DNA from: an uncultured Neglectibacter sp.
Lineage (GTDB): Bacteria > Bacillota > Clostridia > Oscillospirales > Acutalibacteraceae
Assembly (NCBI GenBank): GCA_946554335.1
Contig: CAMNSA010000009.1
Span: 1-64,000 of the forward strand
Direction of reading: 5' to 3'
Length of the DNA stretch: 64,000 nt
The notes below the pieces were generated by a model, which worked only from the letters and a program-made list of their open reading frames with translations, was not told where the DNA came from and ran no database searches. Shown piece after piece: positions 1-61,569 of this stretch (within the stretch, counting starts at the first letter, position 1; each line of letters opens with the position of its first letter). Position numbers and translations under genes: made by a program.

Positions 1-62
1 TTGTTTTTTTTTTTAACCGCCGGGCTGTGTTCTTGGGGGGGTACTTTTTTAAACGATAGCCG

Positions 63-866: not shown

Positions 867-992
867 ATGAAGAACCGTTTCACAGCGATTTTTCGGATGA
901 TGGATATGCGGATGCGCCCCATGTGCGCTCGCTTTTCTATGCCTTTTTCCCATCTGCTTTCCGTTTCCGCAAAACTTTGCCGCGCACAGTGA
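867..992 (+). CDS. Met-rich leader peptide (candidate methionine attenuator)
   Basis: A 41-codon reading frame with a good Shine-Dalgarno (AAGGGAGA, 851-858, 8 nt before ATG). Seven of 41 residues are Met: codons 1, 11, 12, 14, 16, 19 and 25, five of them packed into 'MMDMRMRPM' (897-923). It ends at TGA 990-992, 22 nt before the terminator hairpin, and lies in the leader of a methionine ABC transporter operon. This is the layout of a ribosome-mediated attenuator, in which scarcity of charged tRNA-Met stalls the ribosome on the Met cluster. The function is inference; I know of no named family for this peptide. Confidence 0.6.
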   Translation: MKNRFTAIFRMMDMRMRPMCARFSMPFSHLLSVSAKLCRAQ

Positions 993-33963: not shown

Positions 33964-34482
33964 ATGGGAAAATGTATTGCCCTTTGTGGGTTTATGGGGT
34001 GTGGAAAATCCACCATCGGCAAGCGTCTCGCAAGAGAGCTTTCCCTGGAGTTCTGCGACCTGGACCGGTATATCGAAGAACAGGAGGGAAGGACCGTCAC
34101 GGAGATGTTCCAAAAGTTTGGGGAAACGGGGTTCCGGGCACGAGAGCGGCAGGCTGTCCGGGAGCTGTCCAAAAGGGAGGAAATTGTGATTGCCTGCGGC
34201 GGAGGTACGGTTTTGTTTCCTGAGAATGTGGAAGCGTTTCATAAAAACGGCGCTAAGATCCTCTATTTAAAGGTGCCCCTGCCGTTTCTCCAGGAAAGAC
34301 TGAAAAACGACAGGAAAAGGCCTCTTTTACAGCGGACTGACCGAAGAGAGTTCATTGAGAGGCTTTACCGCGAACGCTGTCCTCTTTATGAGAAGGCGGC
34401 GGATCAGGTGATAGAGGCGAGGGTTTCCAAGGCGGCGGTGGTCAGGAAGATCCTGGAGCTTTATCCCGATTTGTCGCTTTAA
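33964..34482 (+). CDS. aroK: Shikimate kinase
   Basis: 172 residues. P-loop 'GFMGCGKSTIGKRLA', shikimate-binding 'DLDRYIEE' and 'FRARERQAVRELS', 'CGGGTVL', and lid 'RPLL'. It phosphorylates shikimate with ATP. Coupled to aroE (3-nt gap). The next aro genes are separated by a promoter and attenuator. Confidence 0.94.
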   Translation: MGKCIALCGFMGCGKSTIGKRLARELSLEFCDLDRYIEEQEGRTVTEMFQKFGETGFRARERQAVRELSKREEIVIACGGGTVLFPENVEAFHKNGAKILYLKVPLPFLQERLKNDRKRPLLQRTDRREFIERLYRERCPLYEKAADQVIEARVSKAAVVRKILELYPDLSL

Positions 34483-34494
34483 AGCACAAAATTC

Positions 34495-34523
34495 TTGACA
34501 AATGCTTTTTTAAGGGGTAAGAT
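34495..34523 (+). promoter_or_regulatory. Promoter of the aroF operon
   Basis: TTGACA (34495-34500), 17-nt spacer, TAAGAT (34518-34523). Transcription from about 34530 gives a 300-nt leader with a peptide frame and a terminator. Confidence 0.8.
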
Positions 34524-34553
34524 AAAGAAAACAGTCCGGAGGATACAGGATAT

Positions 34554-34643
34554 ATGGTCTCCTTAAACGCAGAACGATTTAGCCGCTATTTTATTGGTTC
34601 ACGATTTATGATTTCGTGGGCTTTTTCTCCTGTGTGGAAATAA
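34554..34643 (+). CDS. Aromatic-rich leader peptide (candidate attenuator)
   Basis: A 29-codon frame with Shine-Dalgarno GGAGGAT (34538-34544) before ATG 34554 and stop TAA at 34641-34643. Seven of 29 residues are aromatic: Phe9, Tyr12, Phe13, Phe18, Trp22, Phe24, Trp28, the last four within 'RFMISWAFSPVWK'. It sits between a strong promoter and a terminator upstream of DAHP synthase, the first step of aromatic synthesis. The layout is that of a leader peptide sensing Phe/Tyr/Trp supply by ribosome stalling. I do not know a named family for it. Confidence 0.65.
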   Translation: MVSLNAERFSRYFIGSRFMISWAFSPVWK

Positions 34644-34647
34644 CGGC

Positions 34648-34748
34648 GGCTGCGTTTCCGGATTTTGCCTTTTTCCGATACTTTGCGGTATTGGAGAGAG
34701 CAGTGTTTTGAAGTGGAAAAAACGGAGCCAGGGGGCTCCGTTTTTTTG
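34648..34748 (+). terminator. Attenuator terminator ahead of aroF
   Basis: Terminator stem AACGGAGCC (34721-34729) / GGCTCCGTT (34734-34742), then TTTTTT to 34747. Directly after the leader peptide stop, GGCTGCGTT (34649-34657) is complementary to AACGGAGCC at 8 of 9 positions and can form the competing antiterminator. Termination about 215 nt into the transcript would silence the six aro genes downstream. Confidence 0.75.
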
Positions 34749-34829
34749 TGTCGGAAGCTAAGGTTGACACAAGTGGATCGATCCATTGCCGGGACTCCCT
34801 GACAAAGCGAAGGAAGAGAGGAAACAAAA

Positions 34830-35843
34830 ATGATCATTGTATTAAAACCCAACCAAAAGCAGGAGACGATAGACGCTTTTATCAAAAAGCTGACTGCTGA
34901 ATACGAGGTGCAGGTCAACACCTGGGTGGGCACTCACAGCACGGTGCTGGGCTTGATCGGTGATACCACCGTGATCGACAGCGAATATGTGGCGGCTCAG
35001 GATTTTGTGGAAAGCGTAAAGCGGGTACAGGAGCCCTATAAGAAGGCAAACCGCAAGTTCCACCCGGACGACACGGTGATCACTCTGCCGGGAGGGCAGA
35101 AGATCGGCGGGGGCAGCCTTACGATGATCGCCGGGCCCTGTTCTGTGGAAAGCGAAGAGCAGATCTGTCTTGTGGCGGAAAGCGTGAAAAAATCCGGCGC
35201 ACAGTTTCTGCGGGGAGGCGCCTTTAAGCCCCGCACCTCTCCCTATGCCTTTCAGGGAATGAAGGCACAGGGCCTGGAGCTTTTGAAAAAGGCCAGAAAG
35301 CTCACGGGGCTTCCCATCGTGACAGAGATCATGAGCATTGAACACCTGGATCTGTTTGAGGATGTGGATGTAATCCAGGTGGGAGCAAGAAATATGCAGA
35401 ATTTCGAGCTTTTGAAGCAGCTTGGAAAGCTTGATAAGCCTATTTTGCTGAAAAGGGGCCTGGCCAATACCATTGAAGAGCTTTTGATGAGCGCCGAATA
35501 CATCATGGCGGAGGGAAACGAGCAGGTGATCCTTTGCGAACGGGGGATTCGCACCTATGAGACCATCACCCGGAACACGCTGGATATTTCGGCTGTACCC
35601 GTGATCAAAAGGCTTTCTCATCTGCCCGTGATCGTGGACCCGAGCCATGCCTCCGGGATCAACTGGCTCATTGAACCCCTTGCCATCGCCGCGGCCGCTA
35701 TTGGGGCGGACGGCCTGATCATCGAGGTCCACAACGACCCCAGCCACGCCCTCTGCGATGGGGCTCAGTCCATCACACCCGACCAGTTTGAGGTCCTTTC
35801 CAGGAAGGTAAACCGGGTCTTTGAAACCGTGAGCGCATTATGA
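34830..35843 (+). CDS. aroF: 3-deoxy-7-phosphoheptulonate synthase (DAHP synthase, type I beta)
   Basis: 337 residues. An N-terminal ferredoxin-like regulatory domain (~1-75, 'MIIVLKPNQKQETIDAFIKK') is followed by the TIM barrel: 'MIAGPCSVESEEQI', 'LRGGAFKPRTSPYAFQG', 'VGARNMQNFELL', 'LKRGLANTIEE', 'CERGIRTYE' and 'VDPSHASG'. It condenses PEP and erythrose 4-phosphate. The N-terminal domain in this subclass mediates feedback inhibition by aromatic products. It overlaps tyrA by ATGA. Confidence 0.95.
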   Translation: MIIVLKPNQKQETIDAFIKKLTAEYEVQVNTWVGTHSTVLGLIGDTTVIDSEYVAAQDFVESVKRVQEPYKKANRKFHPDDTVITLPGGQKIGGGSLTMIAGPCSVESEEQICLVAESVKKSGAQFLRGGAFKPRTSPYAFQGMKAQGLELLKKARKLTGLPIVTEIMSIEHLDLFEDVDVIQVGARNMQNFELLKQLGKLDKPILLKRGLANTIEELLMSAEYIMAEGNEQVILCERGIRTYETITRNTLDISAVPVIKRLSHLPVIVDPSHASGINWLIEPLAIAAAAIGADGLIIEVHNDPSHALCDGAQSITPDQFEVLSRKVNRVFETVSAL

Positions 35844-36673
35844 AAAAGAAAATTGTTATCGTAGGCCTGGGACTGATCGGCGGGTCGCTGGCAAAAGCGC
35901 TGAAGGTACAGGACGATTACGAGGTCCTGGGCATTGACACCGATGAGGAAACCTTGCTGGACGCCTGTTCGGAGGAAGCTATTGGGGGAAAGGCGACGGT
36001 CTCTGACCTGAAAGAGGCAGACCTTATTTATCTGTGCGTCTATCCGGAAGCGGCTGTGGAATTTGTCCGGCAGCATGGAGAGCTTTTCAAAAAGGGCTGT
36101 ATCGTGACGGATACCTGCGGCATCAAAAGCGCGGTGTGTAAAGGAATGGAGCAGCTGAAAGAGCGGCGGGAGTTTATTTTTGTGGCGGGGCACCCCATGG
36201 CGGGAAAAGAGTTCAGCGGCTTTTCCGCCAGCGACCCCAGCATCTTTGTGGGGGCTTCCTATTTGATCGCTCCCTGCGGCGCGCCGGATTGGGCTGTAGA
36301 GGAGGTCGCTTCTCTGGCCCGGAAAATGGGCTTTGGGAGAATTGTTATGACAACGCCTCAGCAGCATGACCGGGTGATCGCCTTTACCTCTCAGGCGCCT
36401 CATGCCCTGGCCTGCGCCTATGTGATGAGTCCCCGCTGCCGGGAGCATAAGGGATTCTCCGCCGGAAGCTACCGGGATGTTTCCCGAGTGGCCCGCATCA
36501 ACGATGTGCTTTGGAGCCGGCTCTTCCTCGATAACAAAGAGGCTTTGGTGACAGAGCTTGACACCCTTACGGAAAACCTGAAAAAGATCCGGGACGCTGT
36601 GGAAAAGGGAGAGGAAGACGCCCTTCGCTCTCTGCTTAGAAAGGCGGCAAAAATTAAAGAGGAAGAGGGATAA
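35840..36673 (+). CDS. tyrA: Prephenate dehydrogenase
   Basis: 277 residues. 'IVIVGLGLIGGSLAKALK' binds NAD; 'CGIKSAVCKGMEQL', 'FVAGHPMAGKEFSGFSASDP', 'HDRVIAFTSQAPHALACAY' and 'GSYRDVSRVARIND' are the conserved prephenate-site blocks. It makes 4-hydroxyphenylpyruvate for tyrosine. No C-terminal ACT domain is present, so feedback must come from elsewhere. Start overlaps the aroF stop. Confidence 0.94.
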   Translation: MKKKIVIVGLGLIGGSLAKALKVQDDYEVLGIDTDEETLLDACSEEAIGGKATVSDLKEADLIYLCVYPEAAVEFVRQHGELFKKGCIVTDTCGIKSAVCKGMEQLKERREFIFVAGHPMAGKEFSGFSASDPSIFVGASYLIAPCGAPDWAVEEVASLARKMGFGRIVMTTPQQHDRVIAFTSQAPHALACAYVMSPRCREHKGFSAGSYRDVSRVARINDVLWSRLFLDNKEALVTELDTLTENLKKIRDAVEKGEEDALRSLLRKAAKIKEEEG

Positions 36674-36712
36674 ACGGCCCCTTCGCTTTTTCAGGGAAAG
36701 AGAGGAAAAAAG

Positions 36713-37756
36713 ATGGAAATTGAGATCAAGACGGCCCCAGCCTATGTGGTCACGGTGGAAAACGGCGTTCTGGATCGGGTGGGGCAGATCGCGCGGCAGC
36801 TGGAGAAACCGGGTTCAAAGGCGATGATCATCAGCGATACCAATGTGTTTCCCATTTACGGAGAACGGTTGGAGGCTTCTCTGAAGTCAGCGGGCTTTTC
36901 CGTAGCTCGGTTTGTGTTTCCCGCGGGGGAACCCTCTAAGCAGCTTTCCACCGTGTCTGAGATCTATGAAGCTCTTGGAAAGCAGGAATTTACCCGCAGT
37001 GATTTTCTTGTCACGCTGGGCGGTGGAGTCCCGGGAGATATGGGCGGATTTGCGGCGGCCACCTTTTTGCGCGGCATTGATTTTATTCAGGTGCCTACCT
37101 CGCTTTTGGCCCAGGTAGACGCCAGCGTAGGCGGGAAGACCGGTGTAGACCTCCCTTTCGGGAAGAACCTGGTGGGCGCGTTTTATCAGCCCGTTGCCGT
37201 GGCGGCCGATCCGGAAACGCTGCGGACGCTGCCTAAGCGCTATTTTAACGACGGCCTGGGAGAAGTGATCAAATACGGCTGTATCGAGGACGCGGAGCTT
37301 TTCCGGGATCTGGAGGCTAACCGGGCGCTTTCTGATCTTCCCGGCGTGATCTCCCGATGTGTGCTTAGCAAGAAGCATTTTGTAGAAGAGGACACAAAGG
37401 ACAGGGGGAAGCGGATGACCTTGAATTTCGGTCACACCTTCGGCCACGCTCTGGAAAAGCTGCACCACTTTCAGGACTTGTCTCATGGAGAGGCGGTGGG
37501 GCTTGGGATGGTGATGGCCGCCTTAGCCGGAGAAAAGCTGGGAGTCACCACCGAAGGGACTGCCCAGAGGATCCGGAAGGTGTTAGAGCAATACACCCTG
37601 CCGGTGGAGGATCCGTTCTCCGGGGAAGAGATCCTGGAAGCCACCGCTCTGGATAAGAAGACGATGGGGGACACGCTGAATCTGATCCTCCTTTCTGAAA
37701 TCGGGCAGAGCATGATCTATCCGCTGAAAAAGGAGAAGCTCAGCTCTCTTATTTAG
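36713..37756 (+). CDS. aroB: 3-dehydroquinate synthase
   Basis: 347 residues. 'LVTLGGGVPGDMGGFAAATFLRG' is the NAD-binding stretch, 'QVPTSLLAQVDASVGGKTGVDL' and 'KNLVGAFYQP' the substrate site, and 'NFGHTFGHALEK' with 'HGEAVGLGM' the Zn ligands. It converts DAHP to 3-dehydroquinate. The next step (aroD/aroQ) is not in the window. Confidence 0.95.
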   Translation: MEIEIKTAPAYVVTVENGVLDRVGQIARQLEKPGSKAMIISDTNVFPIYGERLEASLKSAGFSVARFVFPAGEPSKQLSTVSEIYEALGKQEFTRSDFLVTLGGGVPGDMGGFAAATFLRGIDFIQVPTSLLAQVDASVGGKTGVDLPFGKNLVGAFYQPVAVAADPETLRTLPKRYFNDGLGEVIKYGCIEDAELFRDLEANRALSDLPGVISRCVLSKKHFVEEDTKDRGKRMTLNFGHTFGHALEKLHHFQDLSHGEAVGLGMVMAALAGEKLGVTTEGTAQRIRKVLEQYTLPVEDPFSGEEILEATALDKKTMGDTLNLILLSEIGQSMIYPLKKEKLSSLI

Positions 37757-37786
37757 CGTTACTCCAATGATAAAAGGATGGTTTTG

Positions 37787-39109
37787 ATGGCGGAGGTAGT
37801 CTATCGGGGGGGGAATCTCAAGGGTACAGTAGCGCTTCCCTCCAGCAAGAGCGCTGCCCATAGGGCGCTGCTTTGCGCGGCGCTTTCCGGTGAAGATACG
37901 GTGGTTTCCCATGTGGATGAAAGCAGGGATATAGAAGCCATGCTCAGCGCAGTTTCCGCTTTGGGGGCACAGGCCGGATACCGTAAAGAGGAAAAGAGGG
38001 TCCTTTTTCGCGGTGCAGGTCTGCATCCGGGGAGCGGTGAAGAGATCAACTGTTTGGAGTCCGGAAACACCCTGCGTTTCGTGGTGCCGGTAGCCGCCGC
38101 CCTGGGAGGAGAGTGGATCTTTACCGGAAGCGGCAGGCTTCCGCAAAGGCCCATGTCCGTTTATCAGGAGGTCCTCCCGCAGAACGGCGCAGCCTATACT
38201 TCTCTTGGAACGCAGACGAATGAGAATCTTCCCCTGAAGCTTTCCGGCAAGCTGATGCCCGGCGTTTTCAGGATTCCGGGGAATATCAGCTCGCAGTTTA
38301 TTAGCGGGCTTTTGTTCGCCCTTCCCCTGCTGGATGGGGAAAGTGAGATCCTTTTGACTTCTCCGCTGGAATCAGAGGGATATGTAGAGCTGACACTCAG
38401 TGTGTTAAGAGATTTTGGAGTCTCCTGTGAGAGAACGAGGTTGGGCTGGAAGATCCCAGGACGCCAGAAATATTCCGCCGCGGAGTATCGTGTGGAGGGA
38501 GACTGGTCTCAGGCGGCCTTTTTCCTTTCTATGGCGGCTCTTTCCCCGGACGGGGGGAAACTTCGGCTTTCCGGGTTGGATCCGGATTCGGTACAGGGAG
38601 ACAAAGCCTGTGTTGACTGTTTTGAAAAATTCGGCCTGCGCACCTGCTGGGAAGACGGCACCCTGACTGCCTGGAACCCGAACTTCCACGAGCCCTTTGG
38701 AGGGCTTACCGGGATTGTGATCGACGCTTCTCAGATCAATGACCTGGTCCCGGCCTTGGCAGTGTGCGGCGCTTTGGCCCGGGGAGAAACCAGGATCATC
38801 AACGCTCAGCGCCTGCGCTTAAAAGAGAGCGACCGGCTTCACGCTATGCAGGAAGCGATCACCGGCCTGGGCGGCCGGGCAGAGGAAACTCCGGACGGGC
38901 TTTTGATCCACGGCGTTCCGGCCCTCTCGGGAGGAAGGGTAAAAGGAGAAAACGACCATCGCGTAGTCATGGCACTGGCGGCTGCTTCCCTTCGCAGCAA
39001 AGCGCCGGTCACGGTGACGGACGCCTGGAGTATTCAAAAGACTTATCCGCACTTTTATGAGGATCTGCAAAAACTGGGAGGTGTTTTTCATGTCATCGAT
39101 GTGGGGTGA
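37787..39109 (+). CDS. aroA: 3-phosphoshikimate 1-carboxyvinyltransferase (EPSP synthase)
   Basis: 440 residues. 'LPSSKSAAHRALLCAALS' is the phosphate-binding start. 'LESGNTLRFVVPVAAAL' and 'RPMSVYQEVL' follow (the family norm is G-N-A-G-T and R-P). 'KESDRLHAMQEAITGLGG' and 'NDHRVVMALAAASLRS' complete it. It joins PEP to shikimate 3-phosphate. The ESGNTLRF box matters for glyphosate sensitivity; here Gly is followed by Asn-Thr rather than Asn-Ala-Gly-Thr, a divergent form. ATG 37787 is favoured over 37778 by Shine-Dalgarno spacing. Its 3' end overlaps aroC by 20 nt. Confidence 0.93.
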   Translation: MAEVVYRGGNLKGTVALPSSKSAAHRALLCAALSGEDTVVSHVDESRDIEAMLSAVSALGAQAGYRKEEKRVLFRGAGLHPGSGEEINCLESGNTLRFVVPVAAALGGEWIFTGSGRLPQRPMSVYQEVLPQNGAAYTSLGTQTNENLPLKLSGKLMPGVFRIPGNISSQFISGLLFALPLLDGESEILLTSPLESEGYVELTLSVLRDFGVSCERTRLGWKIPGRQKYSAAEYRVEGDWSQAAFFLSMAALSPDGGKLRLSGLDPDSVQGDKACVDCFEKFGLRTCWEDGTLTAWNPNFHEPFGGLTGIVIDASQINDLVPALAVCGALARGETRIINAQRLRLKESDRLHAMQEAITGLGGRAEETPDGLLIHGVPALSGGRVKGENDHRVVMALAAASLRSKAPVTVTDAWSIQKTYPHFYEDLQKLGGVFHVIDVG

Positions 39110-58729: not shown

Positions 58730-59013
58730 GAATTAAATAGGAAAAGACGCAGAAGGGAAAAAGATATTGACGCAAGTCTTCAGAGAGCCGGTGGACGCTG
58801 AAAACCGGTGGCTGCCTCAATGTGGATAGCTCATCCCGGAGTCGCTTTTCTGAGCGGCCTTTGTCCGTTAAGAAAAGACGCGTAGCGGCGTTAAACGCTT
58901 TGCCTTGTTAGAGGTGCAGAGAGCGGTGGAGTGATCCGGCGCTGAATACGGGTGGTACCGCGAAATGCTTTTTCGCCCCGGAAGAGGAATTATCCTTTTC
59001 CGGGGTTTTATTT
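58730..59013 (+). promoter_or_regulatory. T-box leader upstream of the TIM-ANL fusion gene, probable alanine specificity
   Basis: Stem I apical part 'CAGAGAGCCGGTGG' (AG bulge and terminal loop), T-box core AATACGGGTGGTACCGCG (58945-58962), then terminator stem CCCCGGAA (58976-58983) / TTTTCCGGGG followed by TTTTATTTT. Aligning the 3' strand of the specifier loop with the Ile T-box at 63 kb (TGGA and TCCC anchors, equal length) places GCT (58829-58831, Ala) where that leader has ATC (Ile). AGC (Ser) overlaps at 58828-58830. The antiterminator bulge TGGT pairs with discriminator A, which suits tRNA-Ala and not tRNA-Ser (G73). Confidence 0.8.
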
Positions 59014-59037
59014 TATGTTGTGAAAGGAAGAAAGGTC

Positions 59038-61569
59038 ATGAAAATCAGTTTTTCTACGCTCGCCTGTCCTGATTACTCCTGGACAGACATCTATTCCATG
59101 GCGAAAGATCTGGGATTTGACGGCATTGAAATACGAGGACTGGGGATCGATATCTTTGCCGTGAACGCGAGGCCCTTCAGCGACGCCCAGCTGCCGAAAA
59201 CCGTGGAAAAGCTCAAGTCTCTGGGGCTGGAGATCCCCTGTCTTGCTTCCGGCTGCTGCTTGAAGGCCAAAGAGAACTACGATAAGAATATCTCTGAAAT
59301 CACTCAGTATATTGTACTGGCTAAAAAATTGGGGACTCCCTATATCCGTGTGCTGGGCGACCTGCTTCCCCAGCCGGACGGTGAGGTGGACGACGCCTTT
59401 GTAGCCGAAACTTTGAAGCTGTTGGGCACCATTGCCCAGGGCTTTGGCGTAACGCTTCTGGTGGAGACCAACGGCGTCTTTGCGGACACCGGCAGGCTGA
59501 AAAGACTGCTGGATCAGGTGGGGCTTCCCTCTGTGGCAGCTCTTTGGGATATGCACCATCCCTATCGTTACATGGGAGAGCAGCCTGAAACCACTGTCGC
59601 AAACCTGGGCTCTTACATCAAATATGTTCATGTGAAGGACAGTGTGATGGAGAATGGGGAGTGCCAGTACCGCATGATGGGCGAGGGAGATCTGCCGATC
59701 ACTCAGATGCTGGATGCTTTGCACGCCATCGGCTATGACGGCTATATTTCCCTGGAGTGGGTGAAGCGGTGGACGGAAGAGCTTTCTGACGCTGGTATCG
59801 TTTTCCCAAAGTTTGCCAATTTCATGCACGAGTATTCTGTCGCTCCCGTCAAAGTGGCGGGAGGACTGCAGGACAACCGTGCCCATACGGGCAAATATGT
59901 CTGGCCCAAGGAAACGCTGATCAACGAGACCTTTCCCGATGTGCTGGATCGTATGGTGCAGGAATTTCCGGATCAGTATTGCTTCCGTTATACGGAGCTG
60001 GACTACACCCGCACCTATACGGAATTCCGGGATGATGTGGACCAGTTTGCCAGAGCTCTGATCGCCATGGGCGTCAAGAAGGGAGATCATGTGGCCATCT
60101 GGGCCACCAATGTTCCCCAGTGGTATATCACCTTCTGGGCCACCACAAAAATCGGAGCTGTCCTGGTCACGGTAAACACTGCCTATAAGATCCACGAGGC
60201 GGAATATCTGCTGCGCCAGTCTGACACTCATACCCTGGTAATGATCGATGGCTATAAAGACTCGGATTATGTGAGGATCATGAAGGAGCTTTGCCCGGAG
60301 CTTTCTGACAGCCTGCCAGGAAAGCTTCACAGCAAGCGCCTTCCCATGCTGCGCAATATCATTACGGTGGACAGCCAGCAGCCGGGCTGTTACACCTGGG
60401 AGCACGCTGTAGGACTGGGTGATTCGGTGCCCCAAAGCGAAGTGGAGGTGCGCCGCCGCAGGATCCATAAGGATGATGTGTGCAATATGCAGTATACCAG
60501 CGGCACCACGGGCTTCCCCAAGGGTGTGATGCTCACCCACTACAATGTGGTGAACAACGGAAAGGCCATCGGCGACTGTATGGATCTTTCCACGGCGGAC
60601 CGTATGATGATACAGGTTCCTATGTTCCACTGCTTCGGTATGGTCCTGGCAATGACCGCGTCCATGACTCACGGCACCACCATGTGTCCCATCACCGCTT
60701 TCTCTCCCAGAAAAGGGCTGTTCTGTATCAATCAGGAAAAAATCACTGCGTTCCATGGAGTACCTACCATGTTTATCGCCATGCTGGAGCATCCTGATTT
60801 TGAAAAGACAGATTTCTCTCATATGCGTACCGGGATCATGGCGGGCTCGCCCTGCCCGGTGAAGGTGATGCAGGATGTGGTGGAAAAGATGAATATGACG
60901 GAGATCTGTATCACTTATGGCCAGACCGAGGCTTCCCCGGGCTGCACCATGAGCAAAACCACCGATTCTCTGGAGACCCGCGTCAATACTGTGGGCGGAG
61001 AGATGTTCGGCGTTTCCTGCAAGATCGTGGACCCGGAGACGGGGGAGGACCTTCCGGACAATATGGACGGCGAGTTCGTCGCCAAAGGCTACAATATCAT
61101 GAAGGGCTACTACAAAATGCCGGAGGCTACCGCGGCGGCCATCGATGAGAACGGCTGGCTGCACACAGGAGACCTTGCCCGCCGTACTCCTGACGGGAAT
61201 TATAAGATCACGGGACGCATCAAGGATATGATCATTCGCGGCGGAGAGAATATTTACCCCAAGGAGATCGAGGACTTTATCTACACTCATCCCAAGGTCA
61301 AGGATGTGCAGGTGATCGGAGTTCCCGACGAGCAGTACGGTGAGGAAATCATGGCCTGCGTGGTGCTCAAGGAGGGGGAGGTTTCCTCGGAAGAAGAGAT
61401 CAAAGAGTTTGTGCTTTCCCATATGGCAAAGCACAAGGTGCCCCGGTATGTCACTTTTGTTTCCGACTTCCCCATGAATGCCGCTGGAAAGATCCTGAAG
61501 TACAAGATGAGAGAAGACGCGGTAAAGCTTTTGCAGCTGCAAAAGGCCAACGAGGTTGAGACCGCATAA
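59038..61569 (+). CDS. Fusion: TIM-barrel sugar isomerase-like domain plus acyl-CoA synthetase (ANL) domain
   Basis: 843 residues, two enzymes in one chain. Residues 1-~265 form an AP-endonuclease-2/xylose isomerase-like TIM barrel with an apparently intact metal site: Glu143 ('LLVETNG'), Asp171 ('LWDMHH'), His198 ('YVHVKD'), Glu240 ('SLEW'). Residues ~290-843 are a complete AMP-forming acyl-CoA synthetase: 'YTSGTTGFPKG' 486-496, 'YGQTEASPG' 627-635, 'WLHTGD' 707-712, catalytic Lys818 ('NAAGKILKY'). Substrates are unknown; the ANL half resembles medium/long-chain acyl-CoA ligases. It is under a T-box and followed by a Gfo/Idh/MocA gene. ATG 59038 follows GGAAGAAAGG. Confidence 0.88.
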   Translation: MKISFSTLACPDYSWTDIYSMAKDLGFDGIEIRGLGIDIFAVNARPFSDAQLPKTVEKLKSLGLEIPCLASGCCLKAKENYDKNISEITQYIVLAKKLGTPYIRVLGDLLPQPDGEVDDAFVAETLKLLGTIAQGFGVTLLVETNGVFADTGRLKRLLDQVGLPSVAALWDMHHPYRYMGEQPETTVANLGSYIKYVHVKDSVMENGECQYRMMGEGDLPITQMLDALHAIGYDGYISLEWVKRWTEELSDAGIVFPKFANFMHEYSVAPVKVAGGLQDNRAHTGKYVWPKETLINETFPDVLDRMVQEFPDQYCFRYTELDYTRTYTEFRDDVDQFARALIAMGVKKGDHVAIWATNVPQWYITFWATTKIGAVLVTVNTAYKIHEAEYLLRQSDTHTLVMIDGYKDSDYVRIMKELCPELSDSLPGKLHSKRLPMLRNIITVDSQQPGCYTWEHAVGLGDSVPQSEVEVRRRRIHKDDVCNMQYTSGTTGFPKGVMLTHYNVVNNGKAIGDCMDLSTADRMMIQVPMFHCFGMVLAMTASMTHGTTMCPITAFSPRKGLFCINQEKITAFHGVPTMFIAMLEHPDFEKTDFSHMRTGIMAGSPCPVKVMQDVVEKMNMTEICITYGQTEASPGCTMSKTTDSLETRVNTVGGEMFGVSCKIVDPETGEDLPDNMDGEFVAKGYNIMKGYYKMPEATAAAIDENGWLHTGDLARRTPDGNYKITGRIKDMIIRGGENIYPKEIEDFIYTHPKVKDVQVIGVPDEQYGEEIMACVVLKEGEVSSEEEIKEFVLSHMAKHKVPRYVTFVSDFPMNAAGKILKYKMREDAVKLLQLQKANEVETA

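Follow-up and report, generated by a model that had tools for sequence, protein, structure and literature searches.

Leader-peptide attenuation is seen as mainly a proteobacterial and actinobacterial device. In the proteobacterial trp and pheA leaders (Rfam Trp_leader and Phe_leader) a Shine-Dalgarno-led frame rich in the regulated residue is accompanied by a coding hairpin and by an antiterminator that overlaps the 5′ arm of the terminator. Firmicutes are expected to sense amino acids by T-boxes (RF00230), in which antitermination follows tRNA charging and which are the usual expectation for this group, or by TRAP in the case of Trp.

Upstream open reading frames (uORFs) associated with shikimate genes have been reported. 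The part of PMC8632094 that describes uORFC-13-1 presents it as a predicted uORF before aroF in Acholeplasma, with 24 sequences from Acholeplasma and environmental DNA only. The legend of Fig. 6b in PMC6429828 shows two shikimate-gene uORF candidates that contain Phe and Tyr, among the motifs of five searched genomes including Clostridium novyi; it does not specify their genome of origin, and contains neither a class-wide survey nor a ribosome-position test. The relevant parts of PMC2965389 (a His leader before hisZ and hisS paralogues of bacilli) and PMC5794164 (a leucine-rich attenuator peptide of S. aureus) present ordinary leader-peptide attenuation in Firmicutes for other amino acids and genes. 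Other uORFs are in print in sections of PMC11109978, and T-boxes are treated in part in PMC2494555. Among the matches listed, chiefly from non-subscription literature, none surveyed leader peptides rich in aromatic residues before clostridial aroF genes.

The window, which is the whole 64,000-nucleotide stretch of DNA analysed here, contains a candidate attenuator between aroK and aroF (Table 1). The candidate resembles the proteobacterial trp and pheA attenuators in its Shine-Dalgarno-led, residue-rich frame, its coding hairpin, the overlap of antiterminator and terminator, and the position of the terminator before the first structural gene. Unlike them, it showed no match to any Rfam family, including the amino acid leader families, at the gathering threshold; the strand predicted to hold the antiterminator lies at the Shine-Dalgarno/start region or the first codons, and the arms of the coding hairpin do not pair with strand C. 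It also differs from the charging-dependent T-box, as the RF00230 covariance model had no match in the leader. With uORFC-13-1, as far as that entry describes it, the leader shares a uORF before aroF, a promoter, a ribosome binding site, a U run that specifies one or more Phe residues and an adjoining terminator; this likeness is one of description, and the host range differs, being Acholeplasma and environmental DNA in that part of the source (PMC8632094). With the candidates of the PMC6429828 legend it shares a uORF containing Phe and Tyr that is tied to shikimate genes.

Table 1. Coordinates of the aroF leader and of the neighbouring genes in the window.
Feature	Position	Strand	Basis or remark
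aroK stop	34482		upstream neighbour; the leader sits between aroK and aroF (34830)
Promoter TTGACA - 17-nt spacer - TAAGAT	34495..34523	+	10/12 consensus positions
-35 TTGACA; -10 TAAGAT	34495-34500; 34518-34523	+	read from sequence
Shine-Dalgarno GGAGG of the leader frame	34538..34542	+	11 nt to ATG; sequence
Leader peptide gene, 29 aa, MVSLNAERFSRYFIGSRFMISWAFSPVWK	34554..34643	+	sequence and genus homologues; ATG 34554-34556, TAA 34641-34643; 4 F, 1 Y, 2 W
Strand 1 (AGCCGC), anti-antiterminator	34581..34586	+	predicted partner of the C region without a ribosome
Coding hairpin A:B, GGTTCACG - 11-nt loop - CGTGGGCT	34596..34622	+	encloses the codons of the second RF (CGATTT); a T run comes after it
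Strand C (CGGCTGCGTTT), antiterminator 5′ strand	34647..34657	+	alignment and folding
Strand D (AAACGGAGCC), shared by the terminator (5′ arm) and the antiterminator (3′ strand)	34720..34729	+	
Strand E, terminator 3′ arm GGCTCCGTTT plus T run	34734..34747	+	
Terminator AAACGGAGCC-AGGG-GGCTCCGTTT	34720-34743		located by folding; T run reaching 34747
aroF, 3-deoxy-7-phosphoheptulonate synthase	34830..35843	+	PRK08673 and TIGR01361 above cut-off
tyrA, prephenate dehydrogenase	35840..36673	+	prephenate dehydrogenase families, all under curated cut-offs
aroB, 3-dehydroquinate synthase	36713..37756	+	TIGR01357 above cut-off
aroA, 3-phosphoshikimate 1-carboxyvinyltransferase	37778..39109	+	TIGR01356 above cut-off
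aroC, chorismate synthase	39057..40181	+	TIGR00033 above cut-off; match from residue 21, true start probably downstream
pheA, prephenate dehydratase, N-terminal chorismate mutase-like part	40195..41331	+	PRK11898 narrowly passes its cut-off; chorismate mutase models do not reach theirs

The original prediction had named a promoter, a 29-codon aromatic frame with a Shine-Dalgarno sequence, an antiterminator strand with eight of nine complementary positions and a terminator, and all of its coordinates and counts proved correct. The complementary strands are GGCTGCGTT (34648-34656) and AACGGAGCC (34721-34729), which pair at 8/9 positions, the ninth being a G.G mismatch. A second stem, TTTTTCCGATAC...GTATTGGAGAGAG, was present at 34669-34700 (+), between strand C of the window and the terminator.

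Taken alone, the leader of the window makes a weak case. Its folding was better than that of shuffled sequences (z -3.49; 0/200 shuffles as good). The aromatic density of the frame was not significant, being matched by 30/100 dinucleotide shuffles of the upstream region, and the frame peaked at 4 aromatics in 12 codons, which is under the 6 used as the criterion for the class (see below). A scan of 34200-35000 found one promoter-like site (0.6 in shuffles) and one terminator-like site (0.9 in shuffles), the latter being the 34669-34700 stem and not the terminator at 34720. At equilibrium the terminator probability was 1.00 for every ribosome position, and the sequestration of D dropped only from 0.73 to 0.50 (0.65 and 0.56 when shuffled). 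Among the genus leaders, that of the window ranks with the weaker ones; its frame is unremarkable by itself, and the significance of the leader is drawn from its relatives.

Conservation of the frame, the lack of which in relatives had been set down in advance as refuting the attenuator, was examined in the genus. A homologous leader was found in 26 of the 28 same-genus relatives having aroF, giving 27 leaders with that of the window. The two relatives without a counted leader are one whose contig stops short of it (L019) and L011 (genome G008), the single same-genus relative that has the upstream DNA yet no leader before aroF. The search pattern demanded the second CGATTT and missed only the stretches of L011, L019 and L031; the last, from another genus of the same family, has an aromatic frame without the two CGATTT sites and is outside the 27. 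The peptide end ISWAFSPVWK, which had been proposed as a search key, closed 0/26 of the other leaders. A TTGACN-16..18-TANNNT promoter preceded the leader in 26/27, the 27th (L010) being lost to the end of its 450-nt stretch, and a purine-rich site stood before the chosen ATG in all 27, as judged by eye and with the site itself used in choosing the ATG.

Alignment of the leaders on the second RF dipeptide revealed where the aromatic residues are kept. At each position from -7 to -3 most leaders carried Phe or Tyr (14 to 21 of 27), Phe was fixed at +1, Phe or Tyr stood at +6 in 23/27 and Trp at +9 in 15/27. The codons CGA-TTT encoded the second RF (34602-34607 in the window) in 27/27 genus leaders and the first RF (34575-34580) in 25/27, the fixity of the second site being partly built in because the search pattern demands it. 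CGA is rare, at 3.2% of the Arg codons in 11 genes of the window. The first CGATTT site, which lies outside the hairpin, is conserved at the nucleotide level. Tyr codons in the genus leaders varied synonymously (TAT 38, TAC 29). Of the 27 genus leaders, 8 contained 6 or more aromatics in 12 codons, the window and 18 others falling below. The leaders are kin to one another, and the p-values therefore overstate independence.

The structural elements were also recovered across the genus. The hairpin around the second RF folded in 27/27 leaders and was followed by at least 4 T in 22/27, as counted by eye. In the 24 leaders of fixed geometry, a set that leaves aside the window, L010 and L028 with their other loop lengths, 183/192 cells of A:B were paired, and two positions had changed in both arms. 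The covariation is real but slight: re-paired arms averaged 178.6 and 10/2000 reached 183. The D:E terminator stem was present in 27/27 aligned leaders, with that of L004, L013 and L029 picked by hand over the automatic choice. The predicted C:D duplex started 5-15 nt past the Trp position in 20/27, often with one mismatch near CGGCTGCG, and strand C deviated in L018, L020 and L026. In many relatives strand 1 lay at the Shine-Dalgarno/start region and not at the first codons. The coding hairpin was considered as an anti-antiterminator and was ruled out, since without a ribosome C paired with A at 0.001 and with B at 0.000 on average.

The dependence of these pairings on the ribosome was modelled in silico, on the assumption that 13 nt separate the downstream edge of the ribosome from the A-site codon's first base. 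The mean equilibrium terminator probability while stalled was at least 0.99 in 8/27 leaders, so the decision must be kinetic; because D:E wins, the equilibrium test is little informative for many leaders, and the RNA was hence folded up to the end of D, that is, before E is made. Shuffling of the stretch bearing C served as the control. Strand D was sequestered at a probability of 0.716 with the ribosome stalled on aromatic codons before the end of the hairpin and at 0.440 with the ribosome past the Trp position, compared with 0.622 and 0.590 after shuffling. The drop occurred in 27/27 leaders and was larger than the shuffled drop in 25/27, whereas the stalled value by itself exceeded the shuffles in just 21/27. 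Without a ribosome, the start region and the initial codons together sequestered C at 0.598, against 0.184 with that region shuffled (24/27 above); in the window strand 1 held C at 0.67, against 0.16. Sequestration of D without a ribosome was 0.487, against 0.680 with the start region shuffled (lower in 22/27). This value is near that past the Trp position and below the stalled one, which is an off state without translation, in silico. In the models, then, the availability of the antiterminator follows the position of the ribosome on the regulated codons (25/27 in the genus), and the predicted folds reproduce the three-state logic of classical attenuation.

It is likely that a ribosome-mediated transcription attenuator adjusts the expression of aroF-tyrA-aroB-aroA-aroC-pheA to how much charged tRNA-Phe and tRNA-Tyr is available. 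In the absence of a ribosome, strand 1 in the start region or first codons would largely hold C, and the D:E terminator could form, leaving the operon off. A ribosome stalled at Phe or Tyr codons when charged tRNA is short would cover strand 1 and leave C free; C would then pair with D ahead of the synthesis of E, and RNA polymerase would continue into aroF. With Phe and Tyr plentiful, the ribosome would move beyond the last aromatic codons and cover C, D:E would form and the operon would again be off. The coding hairpin A:B is a possible transcription-pause site, which may synchronise RNA polymerase with the ribosome. Frame and strand conservation and position-dependent folding were both computed in silico; from these it is inferred that the frame would be translated, that the terminator would act in vivo, that polymerase may pause, that tRNA would be sensed and that the control would reach over the whole operon. 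The proposal of a trp/phe-type leader-peptide attenuator before aroF was supported, with conserved parts and position-dependent pairing in silico; its Trp component was not.

The operon downstream of the leader makes Phe and Tyr. Its AroF is 80% identical to that of Candidatus Heritagella intestinalis (Clostridia, NCBI), whose match place is shared with a genome of the window's family (G245); on this ground the class surveyed below is taken to be Clostridia. No internal forward promoter-like site was found within 34440-41500, and one forward terminator-like match lay inside aroB (36891-36909), the total of that scan being at chance level. Gene spacing and the absence of an internal promoter-like site suggest that the leader may control the whole operon.

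The frequency of such leaders was surveyed in the class Clostridia, a frame being counted if 6 or more aromatics fell in 12 codons. The initial sample comprised 127 upstreams, was biased towards near relatives and included two entries from the same contig (L026 and L032); 71 passed, compared with 1 on the reverse strand. A class sample was then drawn from the 185 genomes with a match, at one place per genome among the matches listed and picked before the upstream DNA was seen. It omitted the family of the window, the genomes already sampled, matches starting inside the protein and many additional members of genera already taken; for one genome (G295) the second copy was used and another (G299) was dropped. 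Ninety-nine upstreams were fetched and 97 were usable, two stretches being too short. An aromatic-rich frame was present in 71/97 upstreams and 7/97 reverse strands, in 31/37 families, and 26/97 upstreams were without one. For 70/97, at most 5/100 shuffles reached the observed aromatic value. A terminator lay past the frame in 69/71, but also in 18/26 of the upstreams without a frame. The class peptides were aromatic-rich without one fixed sequence.

For the 66 class loci whose terminator lies beyond the stop of the frame, folding gave 0.621 with the ribosome stalled and 0.323 with it at the stop, compared with 0.471 and 0.381 after shuffling; the switch exceeded that of the shuffles in 53/66 loci and 26/29 families. 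A T-box pattern was found in 4/97 class upstreams, which all belonged to family f30 and lacked an aromatic-rich frame, and the Rfam T-box upstream of aroF in 3/100 other loci (L071, L117 and L128). As L128 passes the aromatic criterion despite its T-box, some passes are due to chance. The suggestion that this lineage uses ribosome-mediated attenuation widely is supported at aroF in the class, by the 71/97 frames and the 26/29 families with a switch.

The original prediction held that one peptide could read all three aromatic amino acids, and an attenuator working as proposed here that senses Phe, Tyr and Trp is the most substantial of the alternatives, although we regard it as unlikely. Trp does occur in the leaders: the frame of the window has it as residues 22 and 28, more than half of the genus leaders have it nine codons past the second RF as described above, it makes up 2.5% of the genus residues up to that point (F 15.1%, Y 8.5%), and 25/71 class leaders contain it at least once. 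The leaders nevertheless did not come out as a three-residue (Phe, Tyr, Trp) sensor, although Trp reached that 2.5% in the genus, and class-wide it made up 1.0% of the residues, compared with 15.2% for Phe and 12.1% for Tyr. The conserved Trp borders on the stall zone: terminator probabilities for Trp in the A site were 1.00 in L007 and L016 as against 0.29 in L003 and 0.35 in L010. Genome content also argues against Trp. Chorismate_bind (anthranilate synthase) had no match in the genome of the window, which is 99.4% complete, and matched in 14/14 control genomes; it was absent in 24/28 same-genus relatives (25/29 genus genomes), several of them incomplete, and present in 3/20 genus genomes that are at least 90% complete, one of the 4 genus matches being partial. 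IGPS (TrpC) was above cut-off in 3/29 genus genomes and TrpB in 4/29. A weaker TrpB-like match in 27/29, including the genome of the window, fell mostly in frames of ~460-520 residues, which we assume are perhaps TrpB2, salvaging indole. Given the absence of Chorismate_bind and the low class-wide frequency of Trp, we conclude that the leader reads Phe and Tyr and probably does not read Trp; reading of Trp is thus the unsupported part of the prediction.

Two further explanations do not rely on codon starvation. A nascent chain, KRFxYYFSLRFTARAF, that stalls the ribosome on a ligand would suit the residue conservation and the rare CGA that stands ahead of Phe in each RF pair; this is improbable, as the SLRFTARA block is accounted for by the coding hairpin, the peptides of the class have no fixed sequence in common and Tyr codons vary synonymously. 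Retention of the CGATTT motifs and the hairpin at the nucleotide level could also be read as a leader RNA that binds a protein or metabolite, with the frame incidental. That we consider more improbable still, because the leader has no Rfam match, the aromatic-rich frames of 31 families lie mostly on the sense strand (71 vs 7 of 97) and the fold varies with ribosome position.

Two other leader-like regions were observed in the window. A Met-rich short frame, MKNRFTAIFRMMDMRMRPMCARFSMPFSHLLSVSAKLCRAQ, with a Shine-Dalgarno sequence is located at 867-992 (+), upstream of a lipoprotein-like frame at 1191 and of ABC-transporter-like frames; by eye these resemble MetQ/MetN/MetI, and the short frame is probably the Met leader to which the original prediction referred. 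The only T-box of the window, at 58741-58983 (+) with 104 bits, precedes an 849-residue frame (59020-61569) that fuses a xylose-isomerase-like barrel to an AMP-binding enzyme, an odd T-box target.

The mechanism is known and shikimate-gene candidates are in print, as far as the relevant parts of PMC6429828 and PMC8632094 present them; what is added here is breadth and a position-dependent switch. Across Clostridia, Phe/Tyr leader-peptide attenuation, and not a T-box or TRAP, appears on balance to be the prevailing and probably ancestral control of the aroF step, in which the peptide drifts while the aromatic codons, the terminator and the switch persist. The genus of the window would have gained a fixed coding hairpin, a U tract and CGA before Phe, which may time ribosome and polymerase. 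If this is true for most Clostridia, the picture of amino acid sensing in Firmicutes would have to be revised for a large group, a function could be given to many small frames, and the drifting peptide would serve as a natural experiment on how little conservation an attenuator requires.
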